This document shows positions 13,820-15,725 of a DNA stretch of 64,000 bases, in pieces. Positions within the stretch are counted from its first letter, which is position 1. Each line of letters starts with the position of its first letter. The notes under the pieces are model-generated. The model saw only the letters and a list, made by a program, of their open reading frames with translations. It made no database searches and was not told where the DNA came from. The stretch comes from Burkholderia contaminans (GTDB taxonomy: Bacteria > Pseudomonadota > Gammaproteobacteria > Burkholderiales > Burkholderiaceae). The position numbers and the translations under genes were made by a program. The stretch is taken from the NCBI RefSeq assembly GCF_029633825.1, contig NZ_CP090640.1:2170001-2234000 (forward strand), in the 5' to 3' direction.

Positions 13820-13964
13820 AGCTGCTCCAGATGGAAGGGACCAGATCGAGGCCGGGCGCACCTGCGTCTCCGTGTAACCTCTAGCTGATCTAGTTTTTTG
13901 CGCTATGGTATTGTCGAATGTGTAGGTTTTGTTATCGTATTTTTCAGGTTTTCAGCATAAACAA

Positions 13965-14453
13965 ATGAGAACGCAACGTCAGCCCGTACGCTCGCTCGAC
14001 AAGCTCGACCGACGCATCCTGAAACTGCTCCAGGACGACGGCCGGATGGCGATGAAAGACCTTGCGGAACAGGTTGGACTGACCGTCACGCCGTGTATCG
14101 AGCGTGTGCGGCGCATGGAGCGCGACGGCGTGATCACCGGCTATCACGCGCGGGTCGACCCGCACCAGCTGGATGCCGCGCTGCTGGTGTTCGTCGAGAT
14201 CACGCTCGGCCACAAGGGCGGCAACATGTTCGAGCAGTTCCGCCGGGAAGTGATGAAGATCGACGAGGTGCTCGAGTGTCATCTCGTGTCCGGCGATTTC
14301 GACTACCTGATCAAGGCGCGGATCGGTGAGATGGCCGACTACCGGAAGCTGCTCGGCGACATCCTGCTGCAGTTGCCCGGCGCCGTGCAGTCGAAGAGCT
14401 ATGTCGTGATGGAGGAAATCAAGGAGACGCTGACGATCGCCGTGGGCGACTGA
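13965..14453 (+). CDS. Lrp/AsnC family transcriptional regulator (probable dadA regulator)
   Basis: A 162-residue regulator: N-terminal winged HTH (LDKLDRRILKLLQDDGRMAM through the recognition helix near VTPCIERVRRME), hinge, and C-terminal RAM/ACT ligand domain with the EVLECHLVSGDFDYLIKAR segment typical of Lrp. Start MRTQRQPVRSLDKLD fits Lrp proteins, whereas the open frame runs 12 codons further up. Divergent from dadA over about 145 AT-richer bases, so it most likely controls dadA in response to alanine and may be the global Lrp orthologue. The specific role is inferred from position. Confidence 0.85.
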   Translation: MRTQRQPVRSLDKLDRRILKLLQDDGRMAMKDLAEQVGLTVTPCIERVRRMERDGVITGYHARVDPHQLDAALLVFVEITLGHKGGNMFEQFRREVMKIDEVLECHLVSGDFDYLIKARIGEMADYRKLLGDILLQLPGAVQSKSYVVMEEIKETLTIAVGD

Positions 14454-14491
14454 CGTGCCTGCGGCGGGCCGTCGGGCCCTTTATCCCGCCC

Positions 14492-14538
14492 TTGGCATGC
14501 TGCACCCAATACTGTATAAATATACAGTATTGGGTGCA
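14492..14538 (+). promoter_or_regulatory. LexA (SOS) box overlapping a sigma-70 promoter
   Basis: A perfect 38-base palindrome (14501-14538: 18-base arms around AA) contains TACTGT-N8-ACAGTA (14510-14529), a match to the gammaproteobacterial-type LexA box CTGT-N8-ACAG. It covers the -10 TATAAA (14515-14520) of a promoter whose -35 TTGGCA (14492-14497) is spaced 17 bases away, so LexA binding would occlude RNA polymerase. The transcript would be the downstream radical SAM gene. Confidence 0.82.
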
Positions 14539-14555
14539 GGCGAATGGGTGGGCAC

Positions 14556-15725
14556 ATGGACGATCGGTCCGACAACGAATTTCCGGTAGCGCCGCCCGCG
14601 CCCCGCAAGGGGCGCGGTGCGGTCGACAACCTGCAGGGGCGATACGAAATCGCGCAGCGCGAAGCGGTCGACGACGGCTGGACACACGAGTCCGACAATG
14701 CCGACTTCCCCGCGCCGCTGCGCACGCAGGTCTTCGAGGAGCGCGCGAAGAGCATCCTGACGCACAACCAGTCGCCCGACATTCCATTCAGCGTATCGCT
14801 CAATCCATATCGCGGCTGCGAGCACGGCTGCATCTACTGCTTCGCGCGGCCGACGCACAGCTATCTCGGCCTGTCGCCGGGGCTCGATTTCGAAAGTCGC
14901 ATCTATGCGAAGGTCAATGCAGCCGAACTGCTCGAGCGCGAGATCTCGCGCAAGCGTTACGTTCCGGAGCCGATCGCGCTCGGCGTCAACACCGACGCAT
15001 ACCAGCCGGTCGAGCGTGACCTTCGCATCACGCGCAGCGTGATCCAGGTGATGCACGATCGCGGGTTGCCGTTCGCGGCGATCACGAAGTCGTCGCTGAT
15101 CGAACGCGATCTCGACCTGCTCGCGCCAATGGCCGAACGCGGGCAGGTGATGGCGGCGGTCACGATCACGACGCTCGATGCCGATCTTGCGCGCACGCTC
15201 GAGCCGCGCGCGGCAACGCCGGCGCGGCGGTTGCGCACGATTCGTGCGCTGAGCGAGGCGGGTGTGCCGGTCGGCGTGAGCATCGCACCGGTGATTCCGT
15301 TCGTCACCGAGCCCGACATGGAGCGCGTGCTCGAGGCGTGTGCGGAAGCCGGCGCGACGCATGCGAGCTACATCATCCTGAGGCTGCCGTGGGAAGTCGC
15401 GCCGCTGTTCAAGAACTGGCTTGCCGCGCATTTTCCCGATCGCGCGGAGCGTGTGATGAACCGCGTGCGCGACATGCGCGGCGGTAAAGACTACGACTCG
15501 GATTTCTCGAAACGGATGAAGGGCGAGGGGATCTGGGCCGACTTGCTGCGGCAGCGCTTCCGCCAGGCCGTCAGGCGGCTCGGGCTGAACGAGCGCACGA
15601 ACGGGATTCTCGATCTGTCGCAGTTTCGCGGCGCGCCGGCCACCGCGGCGCCGCGTGTTGCTGTTCGTTCAGCTGCGGCGCGGTCGACGCAGACGCGTGA
15701 CGACACGCAATTGAATCTGTTCTGA
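14556..15725 (+). CDS. SOS-controlled radical SAM protein (PA0069 family)
   Basis: A 389-residue radical SAM enzyme with the [4Fe-4S] motif RGCEHGCIYC (Cys 88, 92, 95) in a TIM-barrel-like core. It belongs to the PA0069/Rv2578c group, distantly related to spore photoproduct lyase (SplB); its reaction is not known. Asp/Pro-rich N-terminus contains PRKGRGAVDNLQGRYE, conserved in the group. ATG 14556 follows GGGTGGGCAC; ATG 14544 is an in-frame alternative adding four residues. The upstream LexA box places it in the SOS response, so a DNA-damage role is a reasonable inference. Stands alone between the Lrp gene and a convergent membrane-protein gene. Confidence 0.88.
   Translation: MDDRSDNEFPVAPPAPRKGRGAVDNLQGRYEIAQREAVDDGWTHESDNADFPAPLRTQVFEERAKSILTHNQSPDIPFSVSLNPYRGCEHGCIYCFARPTHSYLGLSPGLDFESRIYAKVNAAELLEREISRKRYVPEPIALGVNTDAYQPVERDLRITRSVIQVMHDRGLPFAAITKSSLIERDLDLLAPMAERGQVMAAVTITTLDADLARTLEPRAATPARRLRTIRALSEAGVPVGVSIAPVIPFVTEPDMERVLEACAEAGATHASYIILRLPWEVAPLFKNWLAAHFPDRAERVMNRVRDMRGGKDYDSDFSKRMKGEGIWADLLRQRFRQAVRRLGLNERTNGILDLSQFRGAPATAAPRVAVRSAAARSTQTRDDTQLNLF

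Follow-up and report, generated by a model that had tools for sequence, protein, structure and literature searches.

The locus and its genes

The element analysed here lies between two co-directional genes in a 64-kb window, by which we mean the whole stretch of DNA studied (Table 1). The upstream gene matches the Lrp model at 214.9 bits, below the equivalog cut-off of 233, and is followed by a short terminator-like hairpin on which a terminator scan, which needs five T in eight bases, made no call. The downstream gene had been described preliminarily as a PA0069-type radical SAM gene, an identity that its profile match confirms (472.3 bits against a cut-off of 360). Its start codon is taken as the ATG at 14556 because an upstream ATG at 14544 is absent in some relatives (e.g. 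L026 and L034). A search of Rfam with positions 13900-15000 returned zero families above the gathering score.

Table 1. Features of the lrp-radical SAM intergenic region and its flanking genes (positions in the window).
Feature	Position	Strand	Basis
lrp-type regulator gene	13965..14453	+	best match NF008370 Lrp
Short terminator-like hairpin after lrp, GGGCC-GTCG-GGCCC then TTTAT	14466..14484	+	sequence, read-through fold
Outer stem, 5' side (anti-Shine-Dalgarno)	14485..14493	+	pairs with 14543-14544 and 14546-14552 in read-through fold
-35 hexamer TTGGCA	14492..14497	+	sequence; invariant in alignment
Palindrome, left arm	14500..14518	+	inverted-repeat search, covariation
LexA-like operator CTGTATAAATATACAG	14512..14527		motif search, conservation
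-10 hexamer TATAAA, within operator	14515..14520	+	sequence, alignment
Palindrome, right arm	14521..14539	+	inverted-repeat search
Outer stem, 3' side, holding the putative Shine-Dalgarno	14543..14552	+	folds, alignment
PA0069-family radical SAM gene, 389 aa	14556..15725	+	NF033668 profile match

The three cysteines of the CX3CX2C cluster motif (C88, C92 and C95) are invariant across 31 proteins. A relationship to spore photoproduct lyase (SPL) had also been suggested for this enzyme, and it holds as regards the fold, but the identity to SPL is 12-14%, and among 31 relatives just three invariant cysteines were found when a fourth was sought. SPL has a conserved fourth cysteine in its active site; C140 appears in PDB entry titles. 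There was no SPL model among the NCBIfam matches of the radical SAM protein, and PDB sequence searches with it never matched SPL: in one of these SkfB was the only match under an E value of 0.001, and another listed designed repeat proteins, in none of which a single stretch passed.

Some genomes have a break in the radical SAM gene near position 70 of the family model, within CX3CX2C (L077, L078, G051, G015, G380 and G382), and split copies occur also in G383, G334 and G463. In L077 and L078 the 3' remnant starts with GCIYCFARPTH and adjoins a divergent complete copy with its own LexA box; at loci of this type it looks as if an island breaks the gene and supplies a replacement. Two genomes of the window's genus carry a second, weaker radical SAM relative with one internal TGA (G019:C4:479989-480822 and G024:C2:3209941-3210774).

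Palindrome, operator and promoter

A single inverted repeat was found in 14400-14620, with arms of 19 nt that are 100% complementary and a 2-nt spacer, AA. What had been called a perfect palindrome of 38 bases therefore does have 38 paired bases, but these are split by the two-base centre and the palindrome is not uninterrupted. The 40-mer folds at -29.6 kcal/mol (z -9.55) and none of 200 shuffles was as stable, so the arms are not due to chance. As the preliminary description had it, TACTGTATAAATATACAGTA lies within the palindrome on the -10 of a TTGGCA-N17-TATAAA promoter, and our reading of the sequence agrees on both hexamers and on their 17-nt spacing. Each hexamer matches the sigma-70 consensus at five of six positions; a consensus promoter scan of 14300-14700 gave 0 promoters because it demands T as the final base of the second hexamer. 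Across 45 aligned sequences of the window's genus CTTGGCA is invariant, and TATAAA is invariant or nearly so. Judging from the position of the -10, the SOS transcript would start near 14527, in the right arm.

The operator, which overlaps the -10, stands out in the window, where a box score of at least 16 was reached in none of 176 other 360-nt stretches. It is also the sole match to CTGT-N8-ACAG in the 64 kb. Because 0.35 such matches are expected per window by chance, and 33 of 100 shuffles of the window have at least one, the bare motif is weak evidence and we dropped it as a line of support.

Conservation of the LexA box

Boxes upstream of PA0069-family orthologues were counted if they scored at least 16 and lay within 300 nt of the gene, which leaves candidate boxes farther upstream in L101 and L145 uncounted. 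By this count the box is present in all 61 loci of the window's genus, as the preliminary description would lead one to expect, and in all 59 loci of the sister genus g20, which by inference only is Paraburkholderia (59 loci from 57 genomes, G121 and G156 contributing two each; 21 of the 76 in the g20 survey were left out). Two loci at contig ends, L110 and L121, have the box and are counted here but were excluded from the pairing tests. In 13 other genera of the family, 41 of 60 loci carry a box, with any box at all in 10 genera; this family survey covered 80 of 85 matching genomes, leaving out G074, G109, G096, G124 and G135.

Further afield, the box precedes the gene in 28 of 29 loci of f161, a group for which 30 of 32 above-cut-off genomes were covered (a further f161 locus, L184, was assigned to the class sample). 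We call f161 very probably Pseudomonadaceae because the best named relatives of its protein L266 are mostly Pseudomonas; identity to 30 Pseudomonas/Stutzerimonas records is 69-81%. An upstream-neighbour test in f161 was dropped, as the open frames there were judged unreliable. In the best 80 of 595 named loci the box occurs in 48, including 29 of 30 from Pseudomonas/Stutzerimonas; within the same 80 there was none in two Rhodanobacter, Dyella, Luteibacter and Frateuria records, nor was there a CTGT-type box in L416-L418, L425-L430 and L432, which from their names we take to be alpha-proteobacteria. Alpha-proteobacterial LexA recognises a different motif, and since our score detects boxes of the CTGT type, their absence from these records is uninformative on LexA control there. 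In the class sample, which covered 50 of 73 matching genomes, only 7 of 50 regions had a box, and none of nine g24 loci has one. By these counts the link is real and lineage-specific, and the earlier interpretation is partly supported.

The same type of box is found in the window's own genome at two genes which, from their translations, we take to be lexA (twin boxes, L084) and recA (one box, L004), and LexA would be expected to bind at 14512-14527. Four copies of the radical SAM gene that are taken to be island-borne (L016, L017, L214 and L215) also have the box. Elsewhere in the own genome, a pair of LexA-like matches spaced by about 2.93 kb occurs on both contigs, at C1:670555-673488 and, in opposite order, at C2:6924-9858; the 16-base flanks around one of the matches are identical, which points to duplication of a segment of roughly 3 kb or longer.

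Covariation of the arms

Beyond the 16-base core, the letters of the arms vary by species and their pairing is kept. This is seen in the arm pairs TGCACCCAA/TTGGGTGCA and TGCGCCCAA/TTGGGCGCA, and again between species in ACCGCCAAT/ATTGGCGGT and GAGCCGAA/TTCGGCTC. In 42 distinct rows from 59 loci of the window's genus, 82.5% of arm cells are paired against 69.6% after shuffling, a control that leaves relatedness in place, and both sides have changed in 12 of 14 arm pairs, which one of 500 shuffles reached. The covariation of the arms is 0.379, against 0.142 shuffled (0 of 500 reach it) and at most 0.134 in slid controls. On a tree of the 59 loci built from the adjacent lrp region, we inferred 36 double changes from one pair to another in 12 flank pairs, with 1-4 in slid controls, a count that may be too high if the element has recombined between species. 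The inner arms hold 8 G-U and 7 A-C mismatches, and inferred single changes in the arms are 9 from Watson-Crick to G-U and 9 of the alternative kind, with neither a G-U preference nor a strand bias. In a few loci of the window's genus, such as L018, L020, L023 and L024, the arms are weak.

Symmetric pairing of the flanks averages 10.98 of 12 in the 61 loci of the window's genus, compared with 4.10 of 12 at imuA boxes (30 loci, one from each of 30 of 31 genomes) and 3.93 of 12 at uvrA boxes (27 of 28 loci usable) in the same genus; these and the other control-site genes are presumed from their translations. In g20 and f161 the means are 5.36 and 5.43, many of the hairpins there being bulged or short. 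A stricter energy test, which holds the three innermost bases fixed, gave p<.05 in 54 of 59 loci of the window's genus and 47 of 57 in g20. Elsewhere the same level was reached in 12 of 29 named Pseudomonas loci (7 of 29 at p<.01), 8 of 28 in f161, 5 of 10 in g10, 2 of 3 in g18, 1 of 8 in g11, 0 of 5 in g25, 2 of 7 in the class and 5 of 19 other named loci. In g13, g3, g8 and g16 the box is present and lrp lies upstream in 10 of 11 loci, and flank pairing reached p<.05 in none of the 11; the island copies likewise carry a box that lacks arms (0 of 4).

The controls themselves differed in this test, with 0 of 27 uvrA and 18 of 30 imuA sites at p<.05, and among other LexA-like sites of the own genome 3 of 9 were flank-paired at p.01 or less. 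Loose flank pairing is therefore not unique to the radical SAM gene; long, symmetric and covarying arms are what distinguish its site from those of imuA and uvrA.

Some of the control sites have features of their own. At the imuA-like boxes (L007 and L293-L322), a TGGC directly before the start codon faces GCCA, and in L321 the stem is clearly longer; a lock of this type may be present at these genes, too. Flank pairing reaches p.002 and.01 at two LexA-like sites of the own genome, L086 (C2:77000) and L089 (C2:2584721). In L323-L350 the open frame that contains the LexA-boxed uvrA-like gene spans about 1975 codons and its matches are repeated, resembling a UvrA of double length.

Two predicted forms of the hairpin

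What follows the hairpin differs between the two genera. In g20, a hairpin of at least 8 flank pairs is present in 55 of 57 loci, and at least four T occur in the next eight bases in 47 of these 55, against 3 of 59 in the window's genus (mean T in the eight bases, 4.42 against 1.46). The window hairpin itself has no T-run, and so lacks the stem followed by a T-run that marks an intrinsic terminator.

In the window's genus, the stem is instead predicted to continue outwards into an outer stem that captures GGGTG at 14546-14550, which we name here as the likely Shine-Dalgarno. In 45 distinct rows from 46 loci that share the leader length, the seven outer-stem pairs are paired in 94.9% of cells, against at most 53.0% when slid; both sides have changed in just one of the seven, a count that 498 of 500 shuffles matched. 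RNAalifold, unaided, recovers the inner and outer stems together. The read-through RNA (14454-14620) folds at -98.2 kcal/mol (z -6.47, to which other hairpins in the RNA contribute) with the Shine-Dalgarno paired, and the RNA from 14527 has a z of -0.79 and a 5' end that is open in the centroid. Over 48 loci, 11 with other leader lengths being left out, the mean predicted cost of opening the Shine-Dalgarno is 9.0 kcal/mol for read-through RNA, 3.15 for SOS RNA and 5.9 when the 5' part is shuffled. The read-through cost exceeds that of the SOS RNA by more than 2 kcal/mol in 42 of the 48 (the other 6 gain 2 or less) and that of the shuffled control by more than 2 in 34 but not in 14. In the Pseudomonas loci L353, L356 and L365 the region before the start is paired in a like manner.

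A possible double lock and its alternatives

Computation shows the element, the covariation of its arms and a predicted sequestration of the Shine-Dalgarno, and with these in mind we lean slightly towards a model in which two controls share one element of 70 bases, namely repression by LexA and an RNA lock on read-through. According to this model, LexA on 14512-14527 would cover the -10 and repress the gene. A transcript entering from lrp would hold the entire inverted repeat and fold into the long hairpin; in the window's group, this would block translation by pairing the Shine-Dalgarno with bases in and ahead of the -35, and in g20 the hairpin and its T-run would terminate transcription. Since the -10 lies inside the operator, the SOS transcript, made once damage removes LexA, would start near 14527 in the 3' half without any 5' strand of the hairpin, and would thus be free to be translated. 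Only RNA from upstream could then form the hairpin. The start site, termination, translation block and LexA binding are what we infer in this scheme, and the position of the LexA site at the tip of a covarying hairpin suggests a second, RNA-level lock, under which the gene would stay off until the damage-induced promoter of the gene itself fires.

The arms might also be kept paired by mutation, the palindrome around the LexA box seeding template-switch copying that rewrites both arms. Template switching was reported, in the part of the source available to us, to create and maintain hairpins (PMC8794818), and the arms bear marks that it would leave: double changes without G-U intermediates prevail (36 against 9 from Watson-Crick to G-U) and G-U bias is missing. 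However, other LexA boxes of the genus have no symmetric arms (about 4 of 12 pairs), and the T-runs of g20 and the paired Shine-Dalgarno are left unexplained, so that as a full account we think this unlikely, if worth serious thought. Template switching and selection may act together, and the likeliest history is one of selection for the T-run and for Shine-Dalgarno pairing, aided by template switching.

Another possibility is that the hairpin serves lrp, ending or stabilising the 3' end of its mRNA, and that the LexA promoter shares it by chance. The tail of lrp does lie upstream in 59 of 61 loci of the window's genus and in 55 of 59 of g20, and the T-runs of g20 would suit such a role. In the window, however, lrp has its own short hairpin and TTTAT before the -35, the long element lacks a T-run, and the long stem extends to the Shine-Dalgarno of the next gene, all of which makes this reading a rather poor prospect. 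That a second dimeric protein, or an extended contact of LexA, reads the arms would fit the long two-fold symmetry around the operator but is highly improbable, as it is the pairing and not the letters of the arms that is conserved and many g20 hairpins pair solely out of the symmetric register.

If the double lock is true, the element is a compact one-way gate in which one set of bases acts as repressor site, promoter and read-through trap, and which is conserved through pairing rather than sequence. One may speculate, though we hold it doubtful, that the device is recurrent: a LexA operator and promoter nested in a hairpin that silences read-through in several lineages, by termination in one genus and by capture of the Shine-Dalgarno in others, keeping the gene doubly off until damage. 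Control this tight would imply that making the radical SAM enzyme in the absence of damage does harm. The double lock, if true, also gives reason to ask whether leaky expression of PA0069-family genes is costly, a question that bears on the reaction of the enzyme. The element is also a good case for separating hairpin maintenance by template switching from selection.

Relation to known systems

The LexA link itself is already known in print for beta-proteobacteria, under the name splB. In the part available to us, a paper printed in 2012 reports LexA control of splB, an SPL-like gene, in alpha- and beta-proteobacteria; LexA-binding sites are given for the beta-proteobacterial gene, and Burkholderia species were among those analysed (PMC3323433). 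This splB is probably the PA0069-family gene studied here. A radical SAM protein is also named, in the accessible part of another report, in the core SOS regulon of Gram-positive bacteria (PMC7739468). What looks new is the palindrome beyond the LexA site: the extended hairpin goes unmentioned in the accessible part of the splB paper, and a limited search of the open-access literature found no paper title on a LexA site inside a read-through hairpin.

Of known RNA devices, the g20 form resembles an intrinsic terminator in its stem and T-run, whereas the window form has no T-run, and promoter and operator lie inside the stem. The logic of the proposed lock is that of the lysozyme gene (gene e) of phage T4, where, according to the part of the source we cite, long early transcripts hide the ribosome site and transcripts from a late promoter, which are without the 5' portion, are translated well (PMC3014915). 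Here, too, folding predicts a ribosome site that is hidden by pairing in the longer RNA and freer in the shorter one. In contrast to gene e, the inner promoter of our locus is chromosomal and would be repressed by LexA, and the tip of the predicted hairpin is made up of the operator.
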